Shown here one piece after another: positions 9,375-56,801 of a DNA stretch of 63,964 bases; within the stretch, counting starts at the first letter, position 1, and every line of letters starts with the position of its first letter. A model generated the notes under the pieces. The model saw only the letters and a list, made by a program, of their open reading frames with translations. It made no database searches and was not told where the DNA came from. This stretch comes from Desulfosarcina cetonica JCM 12296 (GTDB lineage: Bacteria; Desulfobacterota; Desulfobacteria; Desulfobacterales; Desulfosarcinaceae). The position numbers were made by a program, and so were the translations under genes. The stretch covers positions 1-63,964 of the forward strand of contig NZ_BBCC01000016.1 in the NCBI RefSeq assembly GCF_001311845.1, given 5' to 3'.

Positions 9375-11082
<1,708 letters not shown>

Positions 11083-11099
<17 letters not shown>

Positions 11100-11292
11100 G
11101 AGCACTACCACCTTGATTTCGAATGATTGATTGTCGGTAATCCTCTTCGGCAGCCTGACGTGCCAGAAGTTTGACCAGTTGGATTACAGCTTCATTGGAT
11201 AATGTCCTAATATGACTCATATTTATGGAAATATCCAACGGTTTTTGAGCGTCATTCGAGATCAAGCCTATATTTGTTTTAGACTTGCTCAT
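11083..11292 (-). CDS. Small recombinase-associated protein
   Basis: A 69-aa protein (MSKSKTNIGLISNDAQKPLD at its start) whose gene overlaps the serine recombinase start by 17 nt. It is therefore probably translationally coupled and could be a directionality factor or regulator. The C-terminal half is a predicted amphipathic helix (EAVIQLVKLLARQAAEEDYRQSI). No known family is recognised. The upstream in-frame extension to 11418 crosses a large palindrome and is not considered coding. Confidence 0.55.
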
Positions 11293-11313
11293 AGCGCCAC
11301 AGTCTTTAAAAGA

Positions 11314-11346: not shown

Positions 11347-11360
11347 AGGTTTGGGCGCAT

Positions 11361-11999: not shown

Positions 12000-12003
12000 C
12001 TTT

Positions 12004-13623
12004 CTAACCTCCCTCAAAAACCCGGTCCAAAACGCCGCCGATATCCAGGCCCTTTCTCATGAAATCCACGGGACGGGATAAAGGCCTGTCAGCATAATGA
12101 GGATGGATGTCAAAAACAGGCCGACCACCTTTCCCGCGATAGCGCCGATCCAGGAAATACGCAGTCTTGAAACAGGCAACCGGATGAGCATGCGCCAGGA
12201 TCAGAATTTGCGCCGCCGGATGCATGGTGGTGACTTCATCAGGCGTGATGAGCTTGCGCGTAATCAAGCTGTCCTCACGGCTCAAATATGAGGGGTCAGA
12301 AAACAGCTCTGCGCGTTTTTCGGCGCTGCGCTCGGACAGGGATTCAATTGTGGTCACGCCACAAAGCCGGGAGGTGTATTCGGCGGTCATCAGATCAGTG
12401 GTCCCGAAAATCTGAATCACGCCGCTATTGGCAATAAAGGTCTGCCAGCGCTTTTCGTAAAGGTCCGCAAGCTGGTTGAAGTCCTGGACGATCATATGGA
12501 GCTGCATGCCATATCCGGCCATCAGACCATAGGCCGTCTCGATTGAATCCAAACGGCCTAATGCTGCAGCTTCCTCGATTAAAAAATAAACAGGCGGGTT
12601 TGGCTTGGTCTTAAACCGGGTGACAGCGGTAATGGCGATACTGATCAGCATTCGCAGGAAACGGTTATAAGTGTAGAGCCGCCCTGCAGGCAGAACGATG
12701 AAGACATCAAGCTTGCCTTGCTCCAGCTCCTCAAAGGAGAAATCCGATTTTGCCAAAGCGCGCTGGATTTTTGGACTTTCAAGGAAGTGGGTATTTTGCT
12801 GCGCTGTCGATATAACGCCGGAGCGTTCTTTTTCTGCCTTGTTCAATATTCTGGCTGCTGCCGAGCGCACCGCCTCACTGCGGCTCTGAGCCATGCCCGG
12901 ATGGACAAGGCGCAATTTGTCATCTTCTCCCTTTTCGAATTTGCCGCTAACCATGGTTTCAAAATCGCGCCTGGAGAGATTGAGCAGCCGTCGCACCTGA
13001 GCCAGATCGCGGGATTTCTTATCAGTAGGCAGGAGCACCAAAGGCGTGGCCGCAACGTATTCAGTAAGTCCTGAAATGAACGATCTGGCTTCTTCATCCC
13101 AATGGGGTTCCCTGGTGTTGCGATCCCTGACAAGAGCGCTGGCAATGAGCATCGCATCTTCAACAAAATCGTCATTGTCAGGATCAAGCCAGTCCAGCAC
13201 ATTGATGCGAGCCGGGGTCATGCCCAGCCTTGAACAAACCATATCCCAGGGATCGATGATGACCACCTTATGCCCCAGAACATCACGCCGGTAGCGGGCA
13301 GCAATTAAGGACAGCTCACCATCCTTGACATCGATGGCCACCAGCGGCCCGCGATGCTCAAGGCAGCGCGGCATGCTTGCGGTGAGGAGTTTGCCGCTCC
13401 TGGTCGGGGCCACCGTCAAGAGATGGCGCTGCGTGCTTGACGTGATGGTAAAGCTTGCAGCCTGCCTGTGTTCAGGGAAACCATAGCCCAGAAATATCTT
13501 GCCGTTCTCGCCGTAGTGACGGCGTTTAAGATGCGCCTTATCCGCCCATCGCGCCGAGCCGTGAAGGCCCGGATCGCGGGCGTAAATCCGCGCCTGGAGG
13601 AGGCTGTTATTTTGTTTTTGCAT
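12004..13623 (-). CDS. VirD4/TraG-family type IV coupling protein
   Basis: A 539-aa ATPase that links relaxase-DNA complexes to a secretion channel. Walker A is VAPTRSGK (71-78). Walker B is in VYFLIEEAAALGRLDS, and the family feature NSGVIQIFGTTDLMTAEYTS follows. Unlike most VirD4 proteins there are no N-terminal transmembrane helices; the protein starts directly in the soluble domain. The start ATG overlaps the VWA-gene stop (TAATG). Its presence with relaxase and MobC but no VirB proteins suggests the element brings its own coupling protein and borrows a channel. Confidence 0.88.
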   Translation of the reverse strand: MQKQNNSLLQARIYARDPGLHGSARWADKAHLKRRHYGENGKIFLGYGFPEHRQAASFTITSSTQRHLLTVAPTRSGKLLTASMPRCLEHRGPLVAIDVKDGELSLIAARYRRDVLGHKVVIIDPWDMVCSRLGMTPARINVLDWLDPDNDDFVEDAMLIASALVRDRNTREPHWDEEARSFISGLTEYVAATPLVLLPTDKKSRDLAQVRRLLNLSRRDFETMVSGKFEKGEDDKLRLVHPGMAQSRSEAVRSAAARILNKAEKERSGVISTAQQNTHFLESPKIQRALAKSDFSFEELEQGKLDVFIVLPAGRLYTYNRFLRMLISIAITAVTRFKTKPNPPVYFLIEEAAALGRLDSIETAYGLMAGYGMQLHMIVQDFNQLADLYEKRWQTFIANSGVIQIFGTTDLMTAEYTSRLCGVTTIESLSERSAEKRAELFSDPSYLSREDSLITRKLITPDEVTTMHPAAQILILAHAHPVACFKTAYFLDRRYRGKGGRPVFDIHPHYADRPLSRPVDFMRKGLDIGGVLDRVFEGG

Positions 13624-33055: not shown

Positions 33056-33056
33056 C

Positions 33057-34370
33057 ATGGTGACCTTACCGGAAATGCCAAGATATGGTGAATTCAAAGA
33101 AACAGGTCACGAATGGCTGGACAATATCCCCACAAACTGGGAACACACCAGACTTAAATTTTTCTCCTCATTAAAGGCAAGAATTGGTTTTCACGGTCTA
33201 AATAGCTCTGACTTTATAGATGAGGGAGCTTTTTGCATTACTGGAACTGATTTTAAAGATGGCTGTATTGACTATTCAAACTGTTATTATGTTTCAGATA
33301 AATGGTACGAGCTAGATAAAAATATCCAAGTAAGAAATGGAGATGTCTTAATAACTAAGGATGGAACAATAGGTAAAACAGCCGTAGTAAAAGGGCTAAA
33401 AGGCAAGGCTACGCTAAATAGTGGCGTGTTTCTTCTTCGTCCTAAAATTTATTCCCAATACTTATATTGGATACTAAATTCCAGAGTTTTTGGTGAGCAG
33501 GTTGATTATATTTCAAGAGGATCAACAATAAATCACTTGTATGAGAGAGATTTTAAAAATTTTTACTTTCCCATTCCAAATAATATTGAACAGATAGCTA
33601 TCGCTAATTTTCTTGATAAGAGAGTTGCGTTGATTCACGATGCAATTTCAATCAAAGAGCGGCAAATTTCTTTATTACAAGAACGTAGGCAAATAATCAT
33701 TCAAAATGCCGTCACTAAAGGTCTCAATCCAGATGTACAAATGAAAGACTCTGGTGTTGATTGGATCGGGCAAATACCTAAGCATTGGGAGCTGTTTGCA
33801 AACAGGGCATTATTTTCTGAGCGGGTTGAATCAGGTAAAGAAGGGTTGCCACTTCTGTCTGTATCTATCCATTCCGGTGTCTCTTCGGAAGAGTTGACTG
33901 AGGAGGAAAACACTCATGGCAGAGTGAAAATTGAAGATAAGACTAAGTATATTCTCGTAAAAAAGGGTGATATTGCGTTTAATATGATGCGAGCCTGGCA
34001 AGGGGGAATTGGGGCTGTAAGCACTGATGGCATGGTAAGCCCTGCTTACATCGTGGCGAAGCCAAAATCGACTATCAGCGCAGAATATTTTGAGCATCAG
34101 TACCGGTGCCCTGAATTCATTCAACAAATGGATAGATTTTCTAAAGGGATTACTGATTTTCGCAAGCGCCTTTACTGGGACGGATTTAAACAATTAAATA
34201 CGGTAGTTCCGCCGATAAATGAGCAGTTAGAAATAGTGCTTTTTATAAAAACACATTCTGAAAAGGTAGATTCAGGCATTGATCTTCTTAATAATCAGAT
34301 CGAGAAACTAAAGGAATACAAAACCACCCTGATCAACAGTGCTGTAACGGGCAAGATTAAAGTGGCTTAG
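33057..34370 (+). CDS. hsdS: Type I restriction-modification specificity subunit
   Basis: A 437-aa DNA-recognition subunit with two target-recognition domains. The first (EWLDNIPTNWEHTRLKFFSS...) ends in the conserved helix FLDKRVALIHDAISIKERQI. The second (DWIGQIPKHWELFANRALFS...) ends in LLNNQIEKLKEYKTTLINSA. The repeat layout predicts a bipartite target. The start at ATG 33057 is chosen over 33009, which would lie inside hsdM. It is followed 12 nt later by hsdR. Confidence 0.93.
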   Translation: MVTLPEMPRYGEFKETGHEWLDNIPTNWEHTRLKFFSSLKARIGFHGLNSSDFIDEGAFCITGTDFKDGCIDYSNCYYVSDKWYELDKNIQVRNGDVLITKDGTIGKTAVVKGLKGKATLNSGVFLLRPKIYSQYLYWILNSRVFGEQVDYISRGSTINHLYERDFKNFYFPIPNNIEQIAIANFLDKRVALIHDAISIKERQISLLQERRQIIIQNAVTKGLNPDVQMKDSGVDWIGQIPKHWELFANRALFSERVESGKEGLPLLSVSIHSGVSSEELTEEENTHGRVKIEDKTKYILVKKGDIAFNMMRAWQGGIGAVSTDGMVSPAYIVAKPKSTISAEYFEHQYRCPEFIQQMDRFSKGITDFRKRLYWDGFKQLNTVVPPINEQLEIVLFIKTHSEKVDSGIDLLNNQIEKLKEYKTTLINSAVTGKIKVA

Positions 34371-34382
34371 CAAGGAGTTAGC

Positions 34383-37300: not shown

Positions 37301-37448
37301 GGCTTTCGAAAAGCTTTTTAAAGAGATTATGCTGCAAAGACGTAAAGATGACCTGGAATTTTATAAGCTATTTGCAAGCGATGAAGCTTTCAAAGCATCG
37401 CTCATGCAAAGCATGCAGCGGATTGTGAATATGCCAGAAGGCGTTTAA
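34383..37448 (+). CDS. hsdR: Type I restriction endonuclease subunit
   Basis: A 1021-aa motor-nuclease. The N-terminal PD-(D/E)xK nuclease has the ExK in GIPLVTLELKNPW. The helicase domains have Walker A IQHSAGSGKSNSI, DEAD-like box IIDEAHSSQSG, motif III AFTATPKNTT and motif VI QALSRLNRS. A C-terminal coupling region follows. AAGGAG precedes the ATG. Together with hsdM and hsdS it forms an intact, uninterrupted operon. Confidence 0.95.
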   Translation: MVSQTNEQALEAAIEKSLTGVSSEELKAGKQAANQGSGYKVGFPTDFNMQYAIDDRFFWEFLKNTQADDLEKIKKNSPNDWQRKLLDRFDRLIKKHGILHLLKKGLSVDDAHFNLMYPAPLASSSKKVKKNFEANIFSCTRQVRYSQANPLQEIDMVLFVNGIPLVTLELKNPWTGQTARYHGQKQYREDRDINQPLLTFGRCLVHMAVDTDEVYMTTKLAGKSTFFLPFNQGYNHGQGNPPNSNGHKTAYLWEEVFTRESLANIIQHFVRLDGTSKNQLNKRTLFFPRYHQMDVVRKLVAHASENGVGQTYLIQHSAGSGKSNSITWAAYQFIEIYPLSEKVPGSKGLDQPLFDSVVVVTDRRLLDKQLRDNIKEFSEVKNIIAPAYRSSELKSALERGKKIIITTIQKFPFIIDGIADLSDKRFAVIIDEAHSSQSGSAHDNMNRAMGHDDEDAEDAQDKILKAMRSRKMRGNASYLAFTATPKNTTLEKFGQQQKDGSFEPFHLYSMKQAIEEGFILDVLANYTTYKSYYEIKKSIIENPEFDTKKAQKKLRAYVERSQQTIDTKAEIMLEHFIPQVVNAKKLRGKSRGMVVTQNIETAIRYYKAINRILDDYGNPFKALVAFSGTKEVDGIEYTEADINGFSDNDTKDMFDRNYIGEKKPKGVNEDKYRLLVVANKYLTGFDQPKLCAMYVDKKLAHVQCVQALSRLNRSAPKLGKKTEDLFILDFFNSIDDIKGAFDPFYTATSLSEATDINVLHELKDAMDDVGVYEWYEVEDFVKRYFDNEDAQTLSPIIDVAAARFNHDLELENSEKADFKIKAKQFVKIYGQMAAIMPYEMVAWEKLFWFLKFLIPKLKVVEPGGDQLDELLESVDLSSYGLQRVKLNHSIVLDEAESELDPQNPNPRGAHGGEEELNPLDEIVRAFNERWFQGWSATPEEQRVRLLSMANSIKSHPDFEDKYKNNPDPHNQHLAFEKLFKEIMLQRRKDDLEFYKLFASDEAFKASLMQSMQRIVNMPEGV

Positions 37449-39822: not shown

Positions 39823-40977
39823 ATGGTTAAAGAGGTCACACGCTACATACCAAGTCCAGTAGAGCGCGAGCTGTGGGCGCGGGCAGCAGGCAGGTGCCAG
39901 TTTAACGGCTGCAATAAGCTGCTCTATAAATCTGCCGTTACCCAGGAATCTGTCAATTTGGCCCAGAAAGCCCATATTTATTCGTTTTCTGAGAAAGGCC
40001 CGCGTGGTTGGGGGCCGTTTAAGCGAAACACCAAGCGTCTTAACGATATCAGCAATTTGATGTTGATGTGCCACGGTTGCCACAAAAAGATCGATCAGGA
40101 TGTGGGCGGTGAAAGATACTCGGCGGAATTGCTTATTCAGTGGAAAAACGACCATGAGCGCCGGGTTGAAATCGTAACCGGCATAGAGCCGGACAAGAAA
40201 AGCCACGTTGTCTTATATGGCGCGAACATTGGCTCTGAAAAATCTCCGATTGAATATCTCGCCTGCGTGGAATCCATGTTTCCGAGTTGGTATCCGGCGA
40301 ATGAAAGACCGGTAATACTTTCGATGAATTCGGAGCTAAAAGATAGCAGTGCAGATTATTGGAGCGCTGAATATGCCCATCTCTACAGGGCATACGAGAG
40401 AAACATTGCGCCTCTCATCGACCAGGATTCTTGTAAGCATTTTTCTGTATTCGCATTCGCACCACAGCCGCTTCTGATACAGCTTGGCGCACTTCTTACG
40501 GATAAAATATCAGTGGAAACCTACCAGTTGCACCGGGAACCTAAAGGCTGGCGCTGGCAGGAATTGCCTGAAGAATTCGAATTTGTTGTGCGTAAGCCCG
40601 AAAATTTCGATGGAGTTCCGGCACTATTGTTTTCACTTAGCGACCATGTTGCACATGATCGCATAACCCGCGTTTTAGAAGGTGCAAATATCTGGGAAGT
40701 GACTATTGAAAACCCTCATAACGATTTTATGCTGTCAAAACAGCAGCTTTCGGTTTTTCGTAGGTGTGTAAGACAGATGATGGTCGATATTAAAAACAAA
40801 CACGGGAATGATGCGCCTTTGCACATCTTTCCCGTTATGCCTGTTTCATGTTGCGTCGAACTGGGACGGGCAAGAATGCCAAAAGCCGACATGCCATGGA
40901 TCATTTACGATCATGATGTTGGAACGCAGGAGTTTATTAAATCCATAGAATTACGAGGTGATATCCATGTTAGATAA
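39823..40977 (+). CDS. cap5: Cap5-like CBASS effector: HNH nuclease fused to SAVED domain
   Basis: 384 aa. The N-terminal HNH nuclease has the zinc/catalytic pattern CQFNGCNKLLY, AHIYSF and NLMLMCHGCHKKID. The C-terminal SAVED domain (SHVVLYGANIGSEKSP... to MPVSCCVELGRARMPKADMPW) senses cyclic nucleotides. In CBASS, the SAVED domain binds the product of the adjacent CD-NTase and switches on DNA degradation, killing the infected cell. The gene overlaps the CD-NTase start by 11 nt. Confidence 0.9.
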   Translation: MVKEVTRYIPSPVERELWARAAGRCQFNGCNKLLYKSAVTQESVNLAQKAHIYSFSEKGPRGWGPFKRNTKRLNDISNLMLMCHGCHKKIDQDVGGERYSAELLIQWKNDHERRVEIVTGIEPDKKSHVVLYGANIGSEKSPIEYLACVESMFPSWYPANERPVILSMNSELKDSSADYWSAEYAHLYRAYERNIAPLIDQDSCKHFSVFAFAPQPLLIQLGALLTDKISVETYQLHREPKGWRWQELPEEFEFVVRKPENFDGVPALLFSLSDHVAHDRITRVLEGANIWEVTIENPHNDFMLSKQQLSVFRRCVRQMMVDIKNKHGNDAPLHIFPVMPVSCCVELGRARMPKADMPWIIYDHDVGTQEFIKSIELRGDIHVR

Positions 40978-42157
40978 GAGAAGCAACGCAATATTAGCCA
41001 AATTATTAGAAAGTATTGAACTGCCCGAAGGAGCCTACGAAAAAGCTGAAAAACGATATACGGACATCGGTGAATGGCTTCACAGGGAGGATTCGAAATG
41101 TGTGGATTTTGATCCGCATGTATCCTCGCAAGGCTCTTTCAGATTGGGAACGGCAAACAAGCCCTATAGAGGTGATGAGTATGATCTTGATATGGGCTGC
41201 AAGCTCCGTCAGGGCTTGTCGAAAGATACAATTACACAAGAGCAGCTAAAAATCCTGGTAGGCGACGAACTGGAACAGTACAGAAAAGCACGAAATATTA
41301 AGGAAGATTTGGCTGAGAAAAAGCGTTGCTGGACTCTGAAATATGCGGATGGCCTGAGCTTTCATATGGATATAGTGCCATGTATCCCGGAAAGTGACCC
41401 AACAAGAGCCGTACTGAAGGAAAGGATGATCAAATTCGCTCAGTTGGACGAATCTCTTGCTTCCGATGTATCAAAATTGGCCGTTTCGATAACTGATAAT
41501 ACCGACCCTGGCTATAAGGCTATAACCGACAATTGGAGGATTAGTAACCCGGAAGGATATGCCCGCTGGTTTGAAAGCCGCATGCGCACTGCATCTGCTT
41601 ATTTGTCTGAGCGTGAAATGGTCTTTAAAGCCAGTATCGATACACTCCCTTACTATAAATGGAAAACACCTCTTCAAAGCGCAGTCCAGCTCTTGAAACG
41701 ACATCGGGATACGATGTTTGAGGGCAATGAAGATTCTAAACCTATTTCGGTTATCATCACGACTTTAGCGGCCCGCGCATATAGAGGAGAGAGTGATTTG
41801 GTATCCGCCCTGTCTAATATCCTGGGCTCTATGGATAAATACATTCAACCGAAAGTGCCTTTCGTTCCAAATCCTGTCAATCCGGCAGAAGACTTTGCAG
41901 ATAAATGGTATTCCGAAAAGCACGCGCGACTGAAACTAAAGGAAAATTTCCACAGATGGCTATTTCAGGCAAAGGCCGATTTTGCTGCATTGTGCTCAAA
42001 AGATAACAGCCAAGTCATTGTAGAGGCGGCAGACCGTGGATTTTCTGTCAATTTCGACAAGGTTTCCATTGAGCAGGTATTAGGCCTGAGTGCCGCAGTC
42101 ATTACTCCGCCCCGGCGCGTTGAAGCGGCTGGTCCAAGGCCATGGTTTAAAGTGTAA
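40967..42157 (+). CDS. CD-NTase (cGAS/DncV-like cyclic nucleotide synthase) of CBASS
   Basis: A 396-aa nucleotidyltransferase. The active-site motif is SSQGSFRLGT...EYDLDMG, with a third acidic residue in SFHMDIVPC. It is predicted to make a cyclic di- or trinucleotide on phage infection. The start ATG 40967 has ACGAGGTGAT upstream, inside the effector gene; the earlier ATG 40958 lacks this spacing. The adjacent E2 gene (stop/start TAAATG) implies activation by conjugation of its C-terminus, as in type II CBASS. Confidence 0.9.
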   Translation: MLDKRSNAILAKLLESIELPEGAYEKAEKRYTDIGEWLHREDSKCVDFDPHVSSQGSFRLGTANKPYRGDEYDLDMGCKLRQGLSKDTITQEQLKILVGDELEQYRKARNIKEDLAEKKRCWTLKYADGLSFHMDIVPCIPESDPTRAVLKERMIKFAQLDESLASDVSKLAVSITDNTDPGYKAITDNWRISNPEGYARWFESRMRTASAYLSEREMVFKASIDTLPYYKWKTPLQSAVQLLKRHRDTMFEGNEDSKPISVIITTLAARAYRGESDLVSALSNILGSMDKYIQPKVPFVPNPVNPAEDFADKWYSEKHARLKLKENFHRWLFQAKADFAALCSKDNSQVIVEAADRGFSVNFDKVSIEQVLGLSAAVITPPRRVEAAGPRPWFKV

Positions 42158-42919
42158 ATGTCAAAGTGGTATGAGTTAAAGCTTCAGAATTTTTTATCGT
42201 TGCATCCCAGGATGCGGCTTACAGAATTAGGAGAAGAGAGAGTTGTCGTTGAAGGTGAATATTACCTCAACGCTCAGATGGACGGTTATGAGGCCATCCA
42301 GGAGACCTACAAGCTTCGAATAATTTTTCCGCCCCACTATCCCAGAGCACTTCCCCAAGTCATTGAACTTGGAAATCGTATTCCGAAAAATTCCGATTAT
42401 CATACAAATAAAGATAGAACTTTTTGTCTTGGGTCAGAGATAAGACTTAAATCTATTCTTCTTGAGCATCCATCAATACTTGATTTTATAAAGAAAATAC
42501 TTGATCCGTTTCTATACGCTGTCAGTTATAAACTGCGGTACGATTTCTATCCATTTGGCGATTTGGCCCACGGGGAGAAAGGCCTAATAGATGATTACCA
42601 GCGTATCTTTAAGGTTGCTGATAAGGCGTCAGTCCTTCAGGTTTTGAGGGCATTGGGGAAGAGAAAACGTGTGGCAAACAAACTACCATGCCCATGTGGG
42701 TGCGGGCAGCGTATAGGTAAATGTGATTATCGGTTTAACCTGCAAGGCTGGAGACGTCTTGAGAGGCGACGTTGGTTTAGAGAGCATCTTTCAGAATTTA
42801 CCCCGGTGAAAAAGGAAAAAAAGAAAAAACCGAAAAAACAAACTGATAGTAAGAAAAAAATCTCGCCTAATTCACGAATGGCTCAAGGGCAAGGTGCCCT
42901 TGAAGCCAGTTCATTTTGA
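42158..42919 (+). CDS. E2-like conjugating protein of type II-short CBASS
   Basis: 253 aa. A ubiquitin-E2 fold has the strand pattern YKLRIIFPPHYPRALPQVIEL and the probable catalytic Cys in DRTFCLGSEI. A C-terminal cysteine cluster CPCGCGQRIGKC resembles a SEC-C-type zinc site, followed by a lysine-rich tail. There is no E1 or JAB partner, so this is the short form of type II CBASS. It starts immediately after the CD-NTase stop. Its 3' end overlaps a convergent small gene by 37 nt. Confidence 0.8.
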   Translation: MSKWYELKLQNFLSLHPRMRLTELGEERVVVEGEYYLNAQMDGYEAIQETYKLRIIFPPHYPRALPQVIELGNRIPKNSDYHTNKDRTFCLGSEIRLKSILLEHPSILDFIKKILDPFLYAVSYKLRYDFYPFGDLAHGEKGLIDDYQRIFKVADKASVLQVLRALGKRKRVANKLPCPCGCGQRIGKCDYRFNLQGWRRLERRRWFREHLSEFTPVKKEKKKKPKKQTDSKKKISPNSRMAQGQGALEASSF

Positions 42920-43877: not shown

Positions 43878-44321
43878 TTATCTTTCCTGTTTCATCTTTA
43901 AAAGCCGAACAAGTAATTCCACAGCCTTTATATCGTTTGAATCATGAACGATATGCGGAAAGACTGTTGTGAAAAAATATAAGAAAATAATCAAAAGATC
44001 AAAATCTATGCGAGTGCAATGGTGTAAATTTTTTACTCAAAATCTATACGATCCCCCAAATCAGGGCCATAAAACCAAGTTCACAGACAAATCCAACGAA
44101 TAAGCCTGAAAACAAAAAGCAAATCAAAGGGCACTGCGTCCCCTCAAAATCAAGTAAAATGACGGTTTCTCTCTTTTAACCGCTTCGCTGAAGCCAGACA
44201 CTCCGCAATTTTCCTGGATTTTTTCACCCCCGCCTTAGTCGGCCTAGTCGCCAGAGGTTCATAAGCAGCGCGCATCAACGCTGCGCTTTTAAGAACCTCA
44301 ATTCAAAGCAAGGAGAGAAAA
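43878..44321. other. AT-rich gap upstream of ardA
   Basis: About 440 nt with no credible gene on either strand. It should hold the ardA promoter. No long palindrome like the single-stranded ardA promoters of plasmids was recognised by eye. Confidence 0.3.
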
Positions 44322-44837
44322 ATGAGTGAAGAAATCAGAATTTATGTGGCGGACCTGGCGGCTTATAACAATGGAATCCTGCACGGTGCCTGGATCAATG
44401 CCTGTGATGACCTGGAGGACATCAAAACCCAAATCGATGAAATGCTGGCTGGTAGCCCCGAAGAGCTGGCCGAGGAATACGCCATTCACGACCATGAAGG
44501 CTTTGAAGGTTATTCCGTTAGCGAGTATAGCGGCATTGATGAACTGCACGAAATCGCCTGTTTTATCGATGAGAATCCGGGCATTGGTGGTGAACTGTTA
44601 AATCAGTTCGGTGATAATCTTGAAGATGCCCGCCGGGCAATAGATGAGGCCTATTATGGCTGTTATGAATCCGTTGCGGATTATGCCGAGGAACTGACTT
44701 CAGGCTCCTGCCAGATTCCCGAGCATTTATCCTGGTACATTGATTATGAGCGCATGGGTCGCGACATGGAAATGAGCGGCGATATTTTCGCAATAAAAAC
44801 CGCTTATAACGAGGTTCACATCTTCGGAAATTTCTAA
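44322..44837 (+). CDS. ardA: ArdA antirestriction protein
   Basis: A 171-aa, strongly acidic DNA mimic. The start EIRIYVADLAAYNNGILHGAWIN is the family signature, and acidic domains follow (DNLEDARRAIDEAYYGCYES; SWYIDYERMGRDMEMSGDIF). It inhibits type I restriction enzymes during transfer into a new host, by binding in place of DNA. AAGGAGAG lies 6 nt before the ATG. It is notable that the same element carries a complete type I system. Confidence 0.93.
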   Translation: MSEEIRIYVADLAAYNNGILHGAWINACDDLEDIKTQIDEMLAGSPEELAEEYAIHDHEGFEGYSVSEYSGIDELHEIACFIDENPGIGGELLNQFGDNLEDARRAIDEAYYGCYESVADYAEELTSGSCQIPEHLSWYIDYERMGRDMEMSGDIFAIKTAYNEVHIFGNF

Positions 44838-44987: not shown

Positions 44988-45308
44988 ATGAGATACGCAA
45001 AAATATCGGTATTTATACTTTTCACTGTCAGTCTCATTTTTGGTCTTGATAGCATGCGGCAAATATATGCAAAGGACGAACTCCCAGCAAATAATTCCCC
45101 CGAAAAACGCGTTGAGCTTGTTACAGATCAGGAGCGCGGCATTCTTTCCATTCAGATAGACGGAGAACTGGTGGCGTTTCTTACAAAAGACGGGCTGCAC
45201 GTCATTAAAAACATCGAATATGGCGGAACCATTGCTGACTATGGACAAGAACGTGTAAAGGCGGCTTTTGGCGCAACGGGACAAAAGGAGGCAGCGGATG
45301 AAAAGTAA
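44988..45308 (+). CDS. Small secreted protein ahead of the DGR target gene
   Basis: A 106-aa protein with an N-terminal signal/anchor (ISVFILFTVSLIFGLD) and a beta-rich mature part (QERGILSIQIDGELVAFLTK). The gene overlaps the DGR target gene by 11 nt, so the two are co-translated. It may be a partner or chaperone of the variable protein; this is inferred from the overlap only. Confidence 0.6.
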   Translation: MRYAKISVFILFTVSLIFGLDSMRQIYAKDELPANNSPEKRVELVTDQERGILSIQIDGELVAFLTKDGLHVIKNIEYGGTIADYGQERVKAAFGATGQKEAADEK

Positions 45309-46557
45309 GTTTTTCCTGATTGCTTTTTCATTTGTCTTAATGGCCTTGTGTCCTGTGACCACTGCCCTTGCACAAGAGGCCGCGCCAGGAGATGCGTGCT
45401 CTACCGAGGATGTGACGCTTATGGCCGGAGGTGTGGAGGCATCCGGCGTTGGATATTATATGGTGTGCCAGGGTGGTGTATGGGTGCGCATCTTTGAGAC
45501 CGATACAAACGGATACCTGGGCGTTGGCCAGGCCAACCCCGCCGCGCCGCTTCATGTTGGTGGTGAGGCGATTATAGGCACAACAACGGGGTTGGGCTGT
45601 TCTGCTACAACCGAAGGTGCGATCAGGTATAATGCGACAGATAATAATATAGAGGTTTGCGACGGGAACGCATGGGCACAAATTCGGGCGAGTGCCTGCG
45701 ACAATGCTCCTGCATTTCTGGCTTTTCCGACGCTCTCGGCTCAAAGCACATCAACGCTTGTGACGTCGGATATTTTGCAGGTTTCAGGGATGGATTCAGG
45801 ATGCACCACGAACGTGAGCGTTAGCGGTGATGGTTCGCCGGAATACCGCACATGTTCAGACGCGAGTTGTTCAAGCGTACTGCAAAGCTGGACAGATGAA
45901 AACAATACGCTTGATATTCAGGGTAATTATATCCAGCTCCGTACAACGACCAGCGCCAGCACGGATACGGTCTATACTGTTACGTTGGTAACGGGACCGA
46001 CCTCACAGGACTGGACAGTTTCCACCGGACTTTCGGAATGCGGTGCCATTGGTAGTTTGTGTGCTGATGGTACCGTTTATGCGGGCTTGACGGGTTCCGA
46101 TCCCTTTTATGTTACCAGATGCGATGCCGGGCAGACATGGGGCGGGTCGTCTTGTGACGGAGCCAGATCAACATATACATGGAATGATGGAGCAACAAAT
46201 TATACGACAACAAGCGTCATTGACCAGCAGGACGGGCAGACAAATACGGCCTCTTTGGTAACGATTGATTCGAATTCAAGTGTGGCCGGAACGCAGCCCC
46301 ACGCAGCGGCGCAGTATTGTAATGACCTGATTTTGCATGGCCATAGTGACTGGTATCTGCCAGCCAAAAATGAGCTGAATACGATGTATGGAAATAGCGC
46401 TACGATTGATAATTTTGATGAAGGGGGAACGTATTATTACTGGTCGTCCTCGGAGTACTCTACTAATTACGCATGGAGACAGCGTTTCAGTGACGGCGCT
46501 CAGAGCTACTACGGCAGCAAGAACACCAGTTACGCCGTCCGCTGCGCCCGGAGATAG
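45298..46557 (+). CDS. DGR target: secreted DUF1566/C-type-lectin-like variable protein
   Basis: A 419-aa protein with a signal peptide (MKSKFFLIAFSFVLMALCPV... cleaved near ALA-QE). Beta-rich, Thr/Ser-rich stalk-like middle domains follow. The C-terminus is a DUF1566/CLec domain (GHSDWYLPAKNELNTMYGNS...) ending in the variable region YYWSSSEYSTNYAWRQRFSD... to CARR. Residues from template AAC/AAT codons are changed to Tyr, Ser, Thr, Gly and Ala on the binding face. AAAAGGAGG precedes ATG 45298. It is the surface-display end product of the retroelement. Confidence 0.92.
   Translation: MKSKFFLIAFSFVLMALCPVTTALAQEAAPGDACSTEDVTLMAGGVEASGVGYYMVCQGGVWVRIFETDTNGYLGVGQANPAAPLHVGGEAIIGTTTGLGCSATTEGAIRYNATDNNIEVCDGNAWAQIRASACDNAPAFLAFPTLSAQSTSTLVTSDILQVSGMDSGCTTNVSVSGDGSPEYRTCSDASCSSVLQSWTDENNTLDIQGNYIQLRTTTSASTDTVYTVTLVTGPTSQDWTVSTGLSECGAIGSLCADGTVYAGLTGSDPFYVTRCDAGQTWGGSSCDGARSTYTWNDGATNYTTTSVIDQQDGQTNTASLVTIDSNSSVAGTQPHAAAQYCNDLILHGHSDWYLPAKNELNTMYGNSATIDNFDEGGTYYYWSSSEYSTNYAWRQRFSDGAQSYYGSKNTSYAVRCARR
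46439..46553 (+). repeat. DGR variable repeat (VR)
   Basis: 115 nt at the 3' end of the target gene, matching the template repeat at 47312-47423. Apart from one extra codon, all 15 differences lie where the template has A (changed to T, C or G). The 3' end GCGCCCGGAG is invariant and serves as the initiation end. Confidence 0.95.
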
Positions 46558-46590
46558 TTAATCATTCAATCATTTAAACATTAAAAAAAT

Positions 46591-46607
46591 GCCGTGCGGA
46601 GCACGGC
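46591..46607 (+). promoter_or_regulatory. Hairpin 38 nt downstream of VR (candidate retrohoming cruciform)
   Basis: GCCGTGC-GGA-GCACGGC, a perfect 7-bp GC stem. In characterised DGRs a GC-rich hairpin shortly after VR aids target recognition. The position and stem length fit. It could instead help terminate the target-gene transcript. Confidence 0.55.
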
Positions 46608-46637
46608 CCGTAAAAATTTTGAGAGATCAGGTTCCTA

Positions 46638-47006
46638 ATGGCCCAGTATCAGCATTTGCCGATTTACAAGCTGACTTATGATCTTCTTATCAGGGTTATG
46701 CAGGTGACAAGAAATTTTCCCCGAGAATACAAATATACGTTGGGTCAGAAGCTGAAAGACGAAATTATAGAGCTGGTGGTTTTGATATACAAAGCCAACA
46801 GCACAAAGGAAAAAGCACCATACATAGAAAGGGCGTTAGAACATATACAGGTGGTTCAGCTTATGATTCGCCTGTCCCATGATATGAGAATTCTGCCCAG
46901 AAAGCATTACGTCGATTTGGCGGAAAAAACGGACAGTCTGGCCCGGCAGGCGCAGGGCTGGCTTAAAAATTCGGGGAAGAGTGAGCCGGAACGGATTGCT
47001 GGCTAA
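46638..47006 (+). CDS. avd: Accessory variability determinant (Avd)
   Basis: A 122-aa four-helix-bundle protein: YQHLPIYKLTYDLLIRVMQV, NFPREYKYTLGQKLKDEIIE, then two more helices. The basic barrel-forming Avd binds the DGR reverse transcriptase and template RNA and is essential for mutagenic cDNA synthesis. It is located between VR and TR as in the standard cassette order. AGGTTCCT upstream gives only a weak ribosome site. Confidence 0.9.
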   Translation: MAQYQHLPIYKLTYDLLIRVMQVTRNFPREYKYTLGQKLKDEIIELVVLIYKANSTKEKAPYIERALEHIQVVQLMIRLSHDMRILPRKHYVDLAEKTDSLARQAQGWLKNSGKSEPERIAG

Positions 47007-47060
47007 GGCCAGCGCCGGAGAGCGTGTTCATCTCGGATGATGGCGGTTAGAACACTCGTT

Positions 47061-47197
47061 TGTCATCCCGTTGGTGAGTACCGCGCAAGCGGTGCGAGCT
47101 TAAACAAACGGGAACCAGAAAAAGACGTCAGCAAAGCTGCCGACATAATGGTTCCCCGCCGTTTGAATTTGCTTTACAGCAAATCGCGGGGATGACA
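47061..47197 (+). repeat. Nested inverted repeats upstream of the template repeat
   Basis: TGTCATCCC (47061-47069) pairs with GGGATGACA (47189-47197). Inside are CCGC-GCAA-GCGG, and CCCCGC/GCGGGG enclosing ATTTGCT/AGCAAAT. It may be a structured leader of the template RNA, or a genomic palindromic repeat of the TGTCATCCC type that landed here. Confidence 0.5.
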
Positions 47198-47311
47198 TTG
47201 AGACGAGCTAACCAAAGTAGAAACCGTAAGGTGAAAGGCAATATGGCTGAGCATTCGGCCTTGTTGACCAAGAGATCGTCATCGAAACGTGCGCCGGTTG
47301 GTGCTTTGGGG

Positions 47312-47423
47312 ACTGGTCGTCCTCGGAGAACAATAATAATAACGCATGGAGACAGCGTTTCAGTGACGGCGATCAGAACAACAACAACAAGAACAACAAT
47401 AACGCCGTCCGATGCGCCCGGAG
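47312..47423 (+). repeat. DGR template repeat (TR)
   Basis: 112 nt between avd and the reverse transcriptase. It is rich in AAC/AAT codons exactly where VR differs. It is one AAC unit (3 nt) shorter than VR in the run near 47378-47390. The reading frame of the reverse transcriptase happens to stay open through it. Confidence 0.95.
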
Positions 47424-47452
47424 GTGGAAGCTCTTCCCCGGAGCTTGCCATT

Positions 47453-48562
47453 TTGACTTTGGAGGCGTTATTTGATGCCTATTTTGATTGCCGCAAGCAT
47501 AAGCGTAACAGTCAGAACCAGCTTGCCTATGAAATGGAGCTGGAAAGAAATACCGTTCAGTTATGGCGCGATCTGGAAGAAGGCCGTTATGAGATTGGGC
47601 GCAGTATTGCCTTTGTTGTAACCCATCCGAAAATCCGGGAAATCTGGGCGGCTGATTTTCGGGATCGGGTGGTTCACCACCTTGTTTATAACGCTATCAG
47701 ACCCAGATTTGAAAAAAGCTTTATCCGTGACGCTTACGCCTGCATACCGGGGCGCGGTATCCATGACGGAATGCGCAGGGTTTCCCATTTTGCGCGTTCG
47801 GTGACACAAAGCTGGAGCAGGCCTGCCTATGCTATGAAAGCCGATATCGCCAATTTCTTTAACAGCATTGACAATGAGCAGCTTATCCATATCCTGAAAA
47901 AACGCATTCACGAAAAATGGGTGATGGATCTGATAGAGCAGATCATTCACCATAACCCGCGCCCCGATGTTATCCGGCAGTCAACACCGGAGATGTTTGC
48001 TCTTGTCCCAAAGCACAAGAGCTTTATGCACGCCCCACCGGGGAAAGGCTTGCCGATTGGTAATCTGACCAGCCAGTTCTTTGCCAATGTGTATTTGAAC
48101 GAGCTGGATCAGTTTGTGAAACATAAGCTCAAAGCCCGGTATTACGGGCGTTATGTGGACGATATTATCTTGTTTCATGAAGATGCCGGAGCGCTTAACG
48201 GCTGGTATGATGAAATCGAAAATTTTCTATACGAGAAACTTAAAATGCGGCTGCACCCTCATAAAAAATGGCTGAACCGCGCGGATGCCGGGATTGATTT
48301 TGTTGGTTTCGTTATAAAACCGGGGCGCACCTATTTGCGGCAAGCGTCCCTTTCCCGTTGCCAGCAAAAAATAAGGGCATGGGAAAAGAAAGGAGCCGTG
48401 CTTGATGAACATGTCCTTGACGGCCTTTCGGCCAGTTTAAACAGCTATCTCGGGATGCTCAGGCAGGTTGATGGATACAATGCCAGAAAATCTATATGCA
48501 ATGGCCTTGAAAGCCTCTTTATCCGGGCGGATGAGGGGTATACTAAAATATTCCAGTGCTAA
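47453..48562 (+). CDS. DGR reverse transcriptase
   Basis: About 369 aa. DGR-type motifs: the palm Asp in AYAMKADIANFFNSID, GLPIGNLTSQFFANVYLNEL (the DGR-diagnostic motif 4), catalytic YGRYVDDIILFHED and the downstream GIDFVGFVI. It copies TR RNA with random insertion opposite adenine. The start is placed at TTG 47453 (LTLEALFDAYF), with CCGGAG upstream; the open frame back to 47192 runs through TR and is not family-like. Confidence 0.93.
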   Translation: MTLEALFDAYFDCRKHKRNSQNQLAYEMELERNTVQLWRDLEEGRYEIGRSIAFVVTHPKIREIWAADFRDRVVHHLVYNAIRPRFEKSFIRDAYACIPGRGIHDGMRRVSHFARSVTQSWSRPAYAMKADIANFFNSIDNEQLIHILKKRIHEKWVMDLIEQIIHHNPRPDVIRQSTPEMFALVPKHKSFMHAPPGKGLPIGNLTSQFFANVYLNELDQFVKHKLKARYYGRYVDDIILFHEDAGALNGWYDEIENFLYEKLKMRLHPHKKWLNRADAGIDFVGFVIKPGRTYLRQASLSRCQQKIRAWEKKGAVLDEHVLDGLSASLNSYLGMLRQVDGYNARKSICNGLESLFIRADEGYTKIFQC

Positions 48563-49243: not shown

Positions 49244-49261
49244 GAGTTTTACTCCTTCTTA

Positions 49262-49345
49262 AATTTCCGGCTCCAGGTCGCTATCGATGTCCAGATCAAG
49301 GCCATCGAATTCAAGCTCGCTCCTGGGCATCTTTTTGGATCTTTT
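49262..49345 (-). pseudogene. Stray copy of the relaxase gene 3' end
   Basis: Encodes KKMPRSELEFDGLDLDIDSD-LEPEI then stop, nearly the same as the last 25 residues of the relaxase at 49701. The DNA has diverged at several positions. It has no start or upstream coding part, so it is a recombination remnant. A fainter match (ATTTCCGGCTCCA) lies at 48569. Confidence 0.65.
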
Positions 49346-49610: not shown

Positions 49611-49700
49611 TGTTTCACCTCCGTATAACCGCGATTGCTCCTTTACCTCCTCATTTTGGCAGATTAGCAACCTATTGATATATCATCATATTTTTTAATC

Positions 49701-51040
49701 CTAAATTTCCGGTTCCAAGTCGTTATCGATGTCCAGATCAAGTCCCTCAAATTCAAGCTCGCTTTTCGGCATCTTCTTAGGCCTGGATGCAGCTTGCCTT
49801 GATTTTTCCCGGTTTTGCCTGTCTTTGCCCGCTTCCATTCCCTGCGCATGCGACAGGTCACGGAGGAGGGCTTTTCGTTCCTCTTCCTGCTTTTCGCGGA
49901 GCAACCTGATTTGAGCCTGCAGGTTCCGGCGCTCCCGGAGCTGCGCACTTATCAAATCTTCCTGCTCTTTCTGGTCGCGCTGGTAGGCAAGCCAGGCCTC
50001 ACGCTCGTTTCGTTTCCGGTTTTTCCAGTAGCGGCCATTGATTTTGTCCCACAACCCCTTAAACCCTGAGCGAATACGTGCCGAACGTTTCAGCTCCTCA
50101 GATTGCCAGCGCTTTTGCTGGACTTCATCCAGGCGGCTTCGATCCGACCGGTGGCGCTCCACCATGTCTTCCTTATCCTTTTTCAAAGGCTTTGATTTCA
50201 GTTCATGCTGCAACTGAAGCTCATCGGCAAAGCCTTTGAACAACTTGCTTAATCTTCCCTTCATGGTGGTTTGAACGTCCGAAACGCTCGGCAAGTCATC
50301 AGGGCTACCAAGCCGGTCCGCCAGTTCCTTCTTTTTTGACCGAGCTGGCGGGTCAGGGAATAGACCTCGCCATGCACATCGACCGCTACAAAGCCGCGCC
50401 GGTCTCCCTGCGCGAGGGTATACCCTATTTCCTGCAGGGCGCTTTCAAAACCGGCACGGCTGTCTGAAACAACCCAACATTCCTGCAGCTCGCGCTTGAT
50501 ATCATCAGGCTTGCGCCCGATGCGCAGCGCTTGCTGCCACTCAGCACGGCTATAGTTCAGTGGGTTCTTTTTGGATTTGTCCCTGAAGCCTTCAGGCATT
50601 TTCCAGCCATGCTCCTTATATAAAGATATGGCAATGTCCTTGAGTTTTAATTTGGGATGGGAAATATTGATCGCCTTCATGTTTTCGGTATCGATCCGGC
50701 TCCAGACACAATGGGCATGACGGCGTCCTTCCTTTTCATGGAAGACCACCACACGCGGCTGGCCTTCCAGCCCCAGTTTCTTTTCTATTCGCTCCAGCGC
50801 GTTTTCAAAGACGGCAACCGGCACTTTTTCATTTTGTGGGGGACTGAGGCTCAGCGCATACATGAACTGTTTGCACTTCGTGCCTTTGGAGAGGGCATAG
50901 GCCTCATTCAAAGCCCCCAGGACATCTGAGGCAATGAAGCCGCTGACCTCATGAACCTTTACATGCTCATTCTGATCCGATTTAAGCAGATGCTTTGCCA
51001 TTTGCGCACCCCCGGCGCGTTGGTTCCCTTTAAGGATCAT
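49701..51040 (-). CDS. MobA/VirD2-like relaxase, frameshifted in this sequence
   Basis: About 446 aa. It starts MILKGNQRAGGAQMAKHLLK. The histidine triad region is VVFHEKEGRRHAHCVWSRID (HxH), the metal site of mobilization relaxases that nick oriT. A long coiled-coil tail carries KKMPKSELEFEGLDLDIDND at the end. The frame breaks in the A-run complementary to 50332-50337; one more A joins TRQLGQKKKELADRLGSPDDL to VSDVQTTMKGRL. It overlaps the MobC-like gene by 11 nt. Confidence 0.82.
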
Positions 51041-51469
51041 GGCGCTCCTCCCTTTGGGTCATTTCAGGGTCACTGAGAGGCTTCAAGCCCATGGCCTTGA
51101 TCAGGGTTTGACGCATCCACCTTATGGCATCGCAGGCGTTATTGAGTTCCTGGGCGACCTCATGGTTCACAGGCAGCGAACCGGAATTAGCGGCCTTGGC
51201 AAGCTGATTGATGTTCTGGGAGATGCGTGATTTGCCTAGTGTGCCCAGGAGTTTGGAAAGCTCTTTCCGCTGAGGATCGGCCATTTGTTCGCGTGTGCGC
51301 CTTTTAGGCAGTTCGGGCATGTCCTCTTTAAAGATCAGCACCTGATATAAGCGGCCAGGGGGCGACCGTCAGCGGCCACTTCCAGGACGCGGCGCTCATC
51401 CTCGGTAAAACGCATGGAAAAAGGAGGCGGGTACTTTGGTTTTTTGCGATCATCAGGAGGCTTATTCAT
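51030..51469 (-). CDS. MobC-like relaxosome accessory protein, frameshifted in this sequence
   Basis: About 146 aa repaired. Starting at ATG 51469 with GGAGG upstream, the first frame reads FSMRFTEDERRVLEVAADGR-PLAAYIR and stops. Adding one G near 51341 continues with LIFKEDMPELPKRRTREQ and the MobC core LLGTLGKSRISQNINQLAKA-ANSGSLPV. MobC binds oriT and assists the relaxase. First gene of the mobilization operon, 84 nt from the attachment core. Confidence 0.78.
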
Positions 51470-51552: not shown

Positions 51553-51568
51553 CCAGCCCCCGCTACCA
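51553..51568 (+). repeat. attR core direct repeat
   Basis: Identical to the 16 nt at 9436-9451. The element side reads CCGTTGGTTG before it; the host side begins CTTAAAGAG. It marks the right end of the element. Confidence 0.9.
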
Positions 51569-53867: not shown

Positions 53868-56801
53868 ATGCTGCAGGATACGATTCAGTCTTCGTTCGTC
53901 TCACTTATACCCTACACCGGCATTCAGTTTTTAGACTTTGGTCTAAAGGCAAATCAGATAAAATTTGCGAAAACGTATTGTGCTCGTAACGAGGGGCCCG
54001 CTCCTTATTTTAGTCATGCGCATGAACACGCGGAGTCGGGAAGGATCACGGATGACAATGGGCAGGACGTGCGTGAGGACGAGCAGATTTCTATCTCGCT
54101 CGCCCAGATATTTCGTGTTTATACAAATTCCTGGCTACCGCTGCCGTTATTGAGAATCAAGGAAGAAACCAAGACTGGAGCCATCCTGTTTGATAGGGGG
54201 CCTTTAAACTGGGCCAGGATCAGAATCACGGAGCTTGAGCCGTCGGATAAAGACGGCCATACGCACCGTATCACGGTTATTGTTGATACCAATTTTCTGG
54301 AAACGCATCCGAACCGACCCTATGCAGCGCCTTCTGAAACCGATGTAACGACAGCGGCGCAATTCAAGCTGGCATCGGCACTGGAGGACTACTGCTATTT
54401 ACAGCAAACGGACTGGGCGGTTTCCATTATTGAAGACGCCTATGATGCCTATCTCGTGCAGCGTTATGGGGCAAACCGGTTTGAGCAGGCGAAAGCCAGT
54501 GTGCCGTTTATGCATCCCTGGGCGGTTTACGTTAGCCTGATCGATATGCTGAATGAGGCCGAAATACTGCCGCGGATTCAATTTGTCGATACCGTCAGCA
54601 GGCCGCTACAATATACGCCGATCGATGTCGACTTTGTCCTTGATATTGGAAATTCGAGGACCTGTGGCATTTTGATCGAGTCGGGTGATCATGACACGAT
54701 TGATCTGAATAACAGCTATTCGCTGGAATTGCGTGATCTGAGTCAGGCAGAGCACATCTACAAAGAGCCCTTTCCCAGTGTTATTGAGTTTCACCGGGAA
54801 TCCTTTGGGAACAATCGGCTGACAGCCCGCAGCCGCCAAGACGCCTTTCAATGGCCAACCCCGGCGCGCATCGGTTGGGAAGCCAATCGGCTGTTTAATA
54901 CCTCCAGAAGTACCGATGGCCGCACCGGAATGTCGTCGCCCAAGCGTTACCTGTGGGATACCCGTGAGCAAAACCACGACTGGTATTTTAACAGTTACGG
55001 TTCCTTGCGGAAAAACACGGGACGTGTCCCCGCGATTAAAGGCACCTTCTTCCAGTATCTCACCAACAGTGGCGATGAATGGAACAGGGAGGACCCGGAC
55101 TCTTCATGCGTGACCCGGGCAACCTATACCCGTAGCGCGATGATGATGTTTTTCCTGGCCGAAGTTTTCACCCAGGCGTTCATGCAGATCAATTCCTTCG
55201 GTCAGCGGCGAAAAAAGGCCTACAAAGATCTGCCACGGCGATTAAACCGAATTGTCCTGACCATGCCGACGGCAATGAGCTTGTCTGAGCGGAAACTGTT
55301 TGAAAAGCGTGCCAGACTTGCCTTGAAAACGGTGGCGGCCGTTATGAAGATTCCCGCAGCGCATGTTCCCGGCCTGGTGATGCAGTGGGATGAGGCAACA
55401 GGGACACAGGCTGTTTTTCTTTACAACGAAGTTAAGGAAAATTTCCGAGGGGATGCAGCGCAATTTTTCGAATCGAGCGCCCGCCCGTTGATTGCAAACA
55501 AGCATAAACAGATGCGTATCGCCAGCATCGATATCGGTGGCGGGACAACCGATCTGATCATCACGTCCTACACCCTTGAAGACGGGGCATTGATCCGGCC
55601 AGAGGAAAATTTCCGCGAAGGATTCAATATCGCCGGGGATGACATTCTGCAAGCCATTATCGAACGGCATATTCTGCCGGTATTCAAGCGTTATATTGAA
55701 CAGGCGGGAGTTGAAGAATCCGAAACGGTGTTGACCGCACTGTTTGGTGCCAGCCGCGCCAACGAAGATGAACGTGAACACCTTAAGCGGCGGCTGTTTT
55801 GCAATCAGGTCTTTATCCCCATCGGCCTGCGTATTATCGGCCTGTATGAATATTATGATACGACGCATGGTAACCGCGCTTACACCTTAACATTCAGCGA
55901 TGTCTTTTCTGACGATGACAGACCCAAGGATTCTGTCATTGCCTATCTGCAACAAGGGCTCAGTGATTTTGGCGTGCCGCCATTCGATCTTCAGGCGATG
56001 GCGTTCAATATCGATCTGGGATTGGTGGATAATACGGTTAAACGCACGATCGGTGGAACACTTGCCGATTTGTGTGAACTGATCAATCATTATCAGTGTG
56101 ATTATCTTCTTCTTTCCGGTCGCCCGAGCATGATGCCCGGAGTCAGAGATTCCGTGATTGCCAAGCTTCCGATTCCGATCGACAGAATCATCTCCATGCA
56201 TGATTACAAGGTCGGTGCCTGGTATCCGTATCGCGATCTCAAAGGCCGCCTGTCGGACCCGAAAACGACCGCAGCCGTCGGCGCCATGGTTTGCGCGTTG
56301 TCCAACGGCTATCTGGTTGGATTCAGTCTCAAGAGCAACACGTTTAAACCGTCATCAACGGCGAAATACATCGGGAAAATGGATGATACCGGACAGATTA
56401 AAAACAAACATCTCTACTTCCGGGACATTAATCTGGAAACCGCCCGGGACGCTGGTGGAAGCAGTGCGCCTTCTGCCGATGTCCGAACACAGCTCCTCTT
56501 CAGCGGCCCGATGTTTATCGGTTTCAGGCAAATGGATATTGAGCGCTGGCCGGGAACCCTGATCTACCGGGTCGATTTTAATGATCGCAACCATGCCGAT
56601 CAGCTGCAGCTACCGTTGAAGATCACGCTGGCGTTAATTCCGGAGGAGGACGACAAGGAATGCAAACTGTTCGATATCGATTCCATCGAAGATGCCGAAG
56701 GCATGCCGAAACCCGCTTCACTGGTAAAGTTTCAATTGCAGACGCTTCGCAACGACAGTGGGTATTGGATGGATACCGGCGTTTTTGTCATTGAGCCGTA
56801 A
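53868..56801 (+). CDS. srfB: SrfB-family protein
   Basis: A 977-aa protein of the Salmonella SrfB family. Two actin/Hsp70-like phosphate motifs are visible, FVLDIGNSRTCGIL (about 255-268) and IASIDIGGGTTDLII (about 550-564), predicting an ATPase fold of the actin-like superfamily. No signal peptide. It is the first gene of an operon with srfC (22 nt later), a TM protein, a TAXI protein and an SrfA-like protein. SrfABC was named as a virulence-regulated set; its molecular job is not established. Confidence 0.85.
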   Translation: MLQDTIQSSFVSLIPYTGIQFLDFGLKANQIKFAKTYCARNEGPAPYFSHAHEHAESGRITDDNGQDVREDEQISISLAQIFRVYTNSWLPLPLLRIKEETKTGAILFDRGPLNWARIRITELEPSDKDGHTHRITVIVDTNFLETHPNRPYAAPSETDVTTAAQFKLASALEDYCYLQQTDWAVSIIEDAYDAYLVQRYGANRFEQAKASVPFMHPWAVYVSLIDMLNEAEILPRIQFVDTVSRPLQYTPIDVDFVLDIGNSRTCGILIESGDHDTIDLNNSYSLELRDLSQAEHIYKEPFPSVIEFHRESFGNNRLTARSRQDAFQWPTPARIGWEANRLFNTSRSTDGRTGMSSPKRYLWDTREQNHDWYFNSYGSLRKNTGRVPAIKGTFFQYLTNSGDEWNREDPDSSCVTRATYTRSAMMMFFLAEVFTQAFMQINSFGQRRKKAYKDLPRRLNRIVLTMPTAMSLSERKLFEKRARLALKTVAAVMKIPAAHVPGLVMQWDEATGTQAVFLYNEVKENFRGDAAQFFESSARPLIANKHKQMRIASIDIGGGTTDLIITSYTLEDGALIRPEENFREGFNIAGDDILQAIIERHILPVFKRYIEQAGVEESETVLTALFGASRANEDEREHLKRRLFCNQVFIPIGLRIIGLYEYYDTTHGNRAYTLTFSDVFSDDDRPKDSVIAYLQQGLSDFGVPPFDLQAMAFNIDLGLVDNTVKRTIGGTLADLCELINHYQCDYLLLSGRPSMMPGVRDSVIAKLPIPIDRIISMHDYKVGAWYPYRDLKGRLSDPKTTAAVGAMVCALSNGYLVGFSLKSNTFKPSSTAKYIGKMDDTGQIKNKHLYFRDINLETARDAGGSSAPSADVRTQLLFSGPMFIGFRQMDIERWPGTLIYRVDFNDRNHADQLQLPLKITLALIPEEDDKECKLFDIDSIEDAEGMPKPASLVKFQLQTLRNDSGYWMDTGVFVIEP

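Follow-up and report, generated by a model that had tools for sequence, protein, structure and literature searches.

In the diversity-generating retroelement (DGR) of the Bordetella phage BPP-1 the genes are arranged in the order mtd-avd-TR-brt, where TR is the template repeat. The same order is found at positions 44988–48562 of contig NZ_BBCC01000016.1 of Desulfosarcina cetonica JCM 12296, whose 63,964 nucleotides are called the window in the following; here, a target gene with the variable repeat (VR) at its 3′ end is followed by avd, TR and the gene of a reverse transcriptase (RT). Both systems furthermore have adenine-specific change, avd, RT and a hairpin 3′ of VR in common (PMC3240598). 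They differ in that BPP-1 is a phage-borne DGR with a tropism-switching target, whereas the window encodes a secreted-looking target with an Lcl_C domain on an integrative element. The stem of the BPP-1 hairpin measures 8 bp, and the sequence required there extends up to 35 bp past VR (PMC3240598). In the window, by contrast, the hairpin starts 37 nt past VR and consists of a 7-bp stem and a 3-nt loop.

The DGR of Legionella pneumophila is located on a mobile element as well. It resembles the one in the window as a cellular DGR with a displayed target, which is a surface lipoprotein in Legionella (PMC8867640), whereas no lipobox was seen by eye in the target of the window. Carriage by phages, plasmids, transposons and conjugative elements has been described for DGRs, among them those of Shewanella pSbal02, the Vibrio Tn7-like element and Bacteroides, which likewise ride on mobile elements (PMC3521204, PMC8867640); hitchhiking of this kind is thus already known, and the window adds a clean case on an integrative element of mobilizable type. 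Within PLSDB, the Moritella plasmid H3 carries an annotated avd and is typed non-mobilizable, and the conjugative Aeromonas plasmid H8, whose RT adjoins a four-helix-bundle gene, is a candidate DGR carrier. Plasmid RTs are nevertheless distant from that of the window, with 28–39% identity among the 20 matches listed and none of at least 60% among the 5000 records listed. The Legionella collagen-like protein Lcl, an extracellular adhesin, has the Lcl_C/DUF1566 domain in common with the target; in Lcl this domain belongs to a glycosaminoglycan-binding trimer of C-type-lectin-like fold (PMC11162425). However, the main text of that article does not contain the word retroelement, and the match of the target to NCBIfam adhesin_Lcl (26 of 500 bits) lies far below the cut-off. 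In the open-licence literature neither an account of this DGR family nor a pairing of DGRs with Micavibrio was found.

The nearest RTs were obtained from a genome scan (12 loci) and belong to the loci L003 (88% identity), L013 (66%), L005 (64%) and L004 (62%), all from metagenome-assembled genomes (MAGs), of which L003, L005 and L013 are titled Alphaproteobacteria and L004 Micavibrio, with an NCBI lineage of Bdellovibrionota. Apart from the RT they share avd with the window; the target is present in L004, L005 and L013, the small secreted gene in L004 and L013, and an adjoining relaxase in L004, L005 and L013. They differ from the window in their integrases and in the type of relaxase; moreover, in L005 and L013 VR is as long as TR, and L003 lacks an insertion between avd and TR. 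Taking these comparisons together with the results below, we consider it very probable that the window carries a standard Avd-type DGR which diversifies a secreted Lcl_C adhesin and which was acquired horizontally as cargo on an integrative element that sits at tRNA-Met and bears mobilization genes.

Cassette layout and adenine-only divergence

The cassette consists of the following features, all on the + strand:
44988..45308, +, gene of a small secreted-looking protein of 106 aa (open reading frame (ORF); signal-like N-terminal stretch by eye)
45298..46557, +, DGR target gene with a signal-like N-terminus and a C-terminal Lcl_C (DUF1566) domain containing VR
46439..46553, +, VR of 115 nt within the target 3′ end (alignment to TR)
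46591..46607, +, GC-rich hairpin 3′ of VR
46638..47006, +, avd (accessory variability determinant; bAvd PF22296, PHROG Avd)
47048..47210, +, avd-TR spacer segment with about 140 nt of inverted-repeat-rich DNA (alignment with L003)
47312..47423, +, TR of 112 nt, equal in length to the TR of L003
47453..48562, +, DGR reverse transcriptase, 369 aa from TTG (ORF open from 47192)

An original prediction made from the sequence had named a target with a 3′ VR, avd, TR and RT in this order, and every part was found where it had been claimed. It had also described an overlap of the target with a second small secreted gene. The target ORF is listed from TTG 45268, and ATG 45298 has a GGAG-like stretch ahead; with the latter start the two genes overlap by 11 nt, in agreement with that claim, the secretion signals being judged by eye. 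For the RT, an ORF begun at ATG 47192 would read through TR, and by eye TTG 47453 with its upstream GGAG is the likelier start.

Gapped alignment of VR with TR revealed 14 substitutions, 14 of 14 at TR adenines, which make up 40 of the 112 TR bases (hypergeometric P 9.7e-8). The adenines are replaced by C (5), G (4) and T (5) in a nearly even spectrum, and 13 of the 14 changes fall on codon positions 1 or 2. The earlier count of 15 differing positions, every one an A in TR, is therefore right as to the base and has to be corrected in number to 14 substitutions plus a 3-nt indel. By this one codon, around 46503–46520 with ambiguous placement, VR is longer than TR, and since the TR of L003 also has 112 nt the extra codon is an insertion on the VR side. 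Plausibly it arose by slippage in an AAC run during homing; with TR constant and VR changed by one codon, there is a hint that the length of VR can also be altered by homing in such runs. At their shared 3′ end, the candidate IMH, TR and VR have a single A difference. When the source genome (86.8% complete) was searched at the DNA level with TR and RT as the query, the own stretch and this one VR were returned.

For comparison, TR/VR pairs were scanned for in 27 sequences and obtained in 22 of them. In most pairs the differences are confined to A; L005, L012, L013 and a single VR of L045 show one or two changes at other bases in addition. No pair was obtained for L003, L004, L006, L008 and L014; L003 is without the target end, and the target ORF of L004 contains unread bases. 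However, a target on a separate contig of the same MAG (L114, 3589–4686) matches the TR of L003: its 3′ end shows 11 A changes, no others and no gap, from which it follows that the RT clade mutates adenines. The L114 target is probably served in trans by the L003 DGR, and four further target-like genes (three in the MAG of L003, one in genome G148) gave no match to this TR. The TR/VR core pattern had no match in IMG/VR.

The RT matched PF00078 (1.7e-17, Pfam) and the PHROG family ‘Reverse transcriptase’ (3.3e-111). Its best solved relative by profile is PDB 8ub7 (2.6e-39), listed only as “Reverse transcriptase”, which we take to be the Bordetella phage DGR enzyme. The frame is open, and the motifs YVDD and IGNLTSQ are both intact. 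YxDD is a motif of DGR RTs, and IGNLTSQ is of the DGR type. The corresponding hallmark is (I/V/L)GxxxSQ (GxxxSQ definition in PMC3521204). Avd matched bAvd PF22296 above the cut-off (1.7e-16) and PHROG Avd (4e-26), whereas it stayed at 61.1 bits under the cut-off of 80 for NCBIfam DivGenRetAVD. Compared with L003, dN/dS amounts to 0.056 over 366 codons of RT and to 0.063 over 82 codons of avd; these values, which average over the whole divergence from L003, indicate strong purifying selection on both genes.

A short GC-rich hairpin with a stem of 5–7 bp was found 3′ of VR in all seven loci examined, namely the window, L005, L007, L009, L012 and L013 (six of the 22 with a TR/VR pair) and L075. 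ATTCAAT precedes it in four of the seven, and L009 and L075 have a one-base variant thereof. Because a 7-bp stem like that of the window arises in 3.3% of shuffles, it is the conservation that carries the argument for the hairpin.

According to this anatomy, the RT together with Avd would copy the TR-bearing RNA, errors would arise at the template adenines, and the cDNA would replace VR at the target 3′ end beside the conserved hairpin. The predicted outcome would be an adhesin that is produced together with its small secreted partner and whose tip, the C-lectin-like Lcl_C domain, varies at its surface.

The target protein and the island as vehicle

Residues 306–418 of the target match Lcl_C PF07603 (7.4e-13, Pfam), and this domain holds VR; furthermore, a profile match to PDB 8q4e was obtained (5.8e-8). 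Lcl_C/DUF1566 is reportedly the commonest Pfam domain among DGR targets (PMC6642488), and according to a survey annotated VR regions are systematically C-lectin folds, while most cellular DGR targets are membrane-anchored or exported binders (PMC8144416). The Lcl_C match, read with this literature, argues that the target is a secreted, diversified and probably surface-exposed C-lectin-like adhesin, its surface display and adhesin role being suggested by these likenesses. Homologs of the target occur in L005, L007 and L013, and in L004 and L013 a homolog of the small gene precedes the target. The small protein matched nothing in Pfam and NCBIfam at 0.01, and for the target no match was found in phage records.

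The DGR lies inside a 42-kb island, at both borders of which 16 bp from the 3′ end of tRNA-Met are repeated. The two repeat copies and the genes for integration and mobilization are as follows:
9436..9451, +, att copy in tRNA-Met (gene 9375–9451), left end of the island (16-bp repeat, ARAGORN)
9408..11111, −, large serine recombinase (integrase; PF00239 5.4e-25, PF07508 2.7e-23)
12004..13623, −, TraG/VirD4-like coupling protein (PF02534 2e-70)
49701–50294, −, C-terminal part of the MobP relaxase in another frame (match to the L005 homolog)
50261..51040, −, nuclease domain of the MobP relaxase (PF03432 5.1e-15)
51030..51341, −, MobC-like protein (PF05713 5e-05; 24.1 bits, with the cut-off at 23.2)
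51553..51568, +, second att copy, right end of the island (16-bp repeat)

The nuclease domain of the relaxase is complete, and the gene is split over two frames, whereas its homologs are mostly continuous; in L005 one continuous homolog of 432 aa spans both ORFs of the window. At the end of the split gene an 80-nt direct repeat (86%) is located at 49257–49336 and 49699–49778. No VirB4-type PF03135 match was found in the whole source assembly (86.8% complete), for which the control matched 1 of 14 genomes and other pore genes were not searched, and an empty integration site was not found. These features suggest a mobilizable-type integrative element, which may have become immobile; its present mobility is doubtful because the relaxase frame is split. 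That the DGR is complete, looks active and lies on a mobilizable element, as predicted, is upheld by the cassette anatomy, the A-only divergence, the intact RT motifs, the low dN/dS and the A-only match of the L003 TR to the L114 target as well as by att sites, integrase, coupling protein, relaxase domain and MobC, and weakened by the split relaxase and the lack of a VirB4-family match in the incomplete genome.

Parts of the vehicle recur elsewhere. Genome G063 contains an integrase relative (60% identical) together with the coupling protein and its three neighbour genes on one contig (C107), and in L111 an integrase relative (44% identical) likewise overlaps tRNA-Met. The plasmid matches of the relaxase, at most 54% identical, are alphaproteobacterial by genus name in 9 of 14 records, and IMG/VR gave no match.

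Relatives, origin and alternative readings

In the RT tree (21 rows) the window and L003 group together with a support of 100/100 within a clade of eight (89/92), whose internal forks are open. RT matches at 1e-25 were obtained in 8 of 142 genomes (three partial) of the order to which the genome of L004 belongs, and which also includes L003 and L013; the source genome and its 59 relatives are outside this order. Among these host relatives, 18 of 59 have some RT match at 1e-3, none of them close. The best ones, in G029 (39% identical) and G054 (36%), each possess their own avd and an A-only TR/VR pair, so hosts of this kind carry DGRs, though distant ones. The tetranucleotide signature of the island resembles that of the Micavibrio locus L004 (0.55) more than any of ten host stretches (0.33–0.48), whereas the left flank fits the host (G000) with r 0.47–0.65 for ten stretches; among the relatives, full-length matches to the hydrogenase of this flank do not exceed 47% identity. 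The cassette is probably accessory cargo of the tRNA-Met integrative element, and it would have reached the host horizontally from a pool including Micavibrio-order and other alphaproteobacterial genomes, this direction being inferred.

Several points weigh against this account. The AlphaFold models are weak, with a mean pLDDT of 42.7 for the target (4 sequences) and 59.8 for the small protein (3 sequences); as they are too poor for use, the fold of the target was assigned from sequence matches, and secretion of both proteins was judged by eye. The support for the RT clade is below the starred level of the program. The right flank fits the host only weakly (0.24–0.49), and L004 equally well as the best host stretch (0.49), so the place of the contig in the source genome is not certain. 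The VR/TR indel is not a product of simple retrohoming, and present activity is predicted from the assembled sequence of a single strain with one VR. Finally, the avd-TR spacer contains the insertion of about 140 nt which L003 lacks and which could disturb the DGR RNA; the region 47007–47460 folds with a z of −5.8, and a second copy of the insert was found neither in the incomplete source genome nor in the genomes of three relatives.

The last points could also be read as signs of decay, i.e. of a DGR which was inherited with its sequence intact and has lost its activity through the insert in the spacer and the altered length of VR, on an island immobilised by a split relaxase and without a PF03135 (VirB4-type) match in the source genome. 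We regard this as unlikely, since RT, avd and target are open, TR is conserved with them, and dN/dS is about 0.06, albeit averaged over the divergence from L003. Moreover, all VR changes lie at adenines in the near-even spectrum given above, and therefore few other mutations have accumulated since the last homing.

In the original prediction it was suggested that the variable protein could tune cell-cell contact or recipient choice during transfer, so that the adhesin would serve the spread of the element itself. Indeed, four of the eight clade members have a relaxase no more than about 4 kb away from the RT, of two types, MobP in the window and L005 and MobA_MobL in L004 and L013 (in the latter spread over several overlapping ORFs), and the target looks secreted and adhesin-like. 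These relaxases were identified with home-made HMMs and Pfam; in the other DGR loci scanned the HMMs matched no relaxase, whereby other families may be missed. The same RT clade also occurs with an integrase beside the RT and no relaxase (L075) and, by eye, with phage-like genes (L076, L077), and one target of the L003 TR resides on a contig apart from its DGR, the contig of L003 itself beginning inside avd. The relaxase of the window is, in addition, split.

The reverse comparison started from the relaxase. Its MobP type was located at 28 places in 24 of the 385 genomes of the class, of which 26 were fetched, the other two being L005 and L082; these 26, L082, the plasmid stretches L087 and L088, L005 and the window make up 31 loci. 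A MobC-like neighbour is present in 26 of the 31, whereas DGR genes occur in 2 of the 31, the window and L005, and phmmer at 1e-5 retrieved them in none of the remaining 29. Five of these (L126, L130, L142, L143 and L148) have less than 5 kb of flank on the side that bears the DGR in the window and L005 and were left out, leaving 0 of 24 other loci with a DGR, including L082, a second relaxase locus of the L005 genome. Because none of these informative loci holds one, the DGR is optional cargo. No finding ties the cassette to DNA transfer. A role of the adhesin in choosing or contacting recipients appears highly improbable in view of these loci and of the various vehicles of the RT clade; if true, it would amount to a novel form of mate choice, and the evidence speaks against it. 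Equally improbable is the broader notion that a group of alphaproteobacterial integrative elements uses the DGR-diversified adhesin to evolve the range of cells contacted by the carrier and thereby its own spread, the cassette having been acquired by elements with unrelated relaxases and having passed into a remote host.

That the repeat arose by chance, or that the retroelement is not a DGR but a group II intron or defence RT, has practically no probability, as the RT matches of the NCBIfam group II and DRT families (8 of 8 below their curated cut-offs) and the generic RT and DRT models of PADLOC are opposed by the A-only divergence, the DGR-type IGNLTSQ, the adjoining Avd and the lack of any Rfam intron family at gathering score in the window.

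Cargo of an integrative element thus remains our preferred reading of the cassette, and the clade shows how close cassettes switch vehicles between hosts, from MobP and MobA/MobL islands to an integrase-only element and phage-like loci, so that DGR spread by named vehicles becomes testable. In L004 a block at 4304–13205 comprises a MobA/MobL relaxase, an AAA protein, the small secreted gene, target, avd, RT, an S26 peptidase and a tyrosine integrase; it may be a small integrative element made up largely of the DGR. Convincing end repeats were not found for the islands of L004 and L005.

Further cargo and neighbouring genes

To the right of the island, at 53868–56801, an SrfB-family protein is encoded (4.2e-276), which had no match in 30 host relatives. 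On the island itself, the cassette is preceded by the following cargo gene:
44322..44837, +, ArdA antirestriction protein (PF07275 1.2e-42)

The DNA of the ArdA region (44130–44826) is 71% identical to a Pseudanabaena plasmid. A Gabija-like pair is located at 25710–29506, with a GajA-like ORF at 27830–29506 and a GajB-like match in 26735–27553; of the 574 positions in the profile the latter covers no more than the initial 216, and the helicase gene may be split, ORF 25710–26654 lying outside the scan. Furthermore, the island carries type I restriction-modification genes at 30665–37448 and a CBASS-like operon at 39823–42919, which consists of an HNH-SAVED effector, a cyclase and an E2-like protein.

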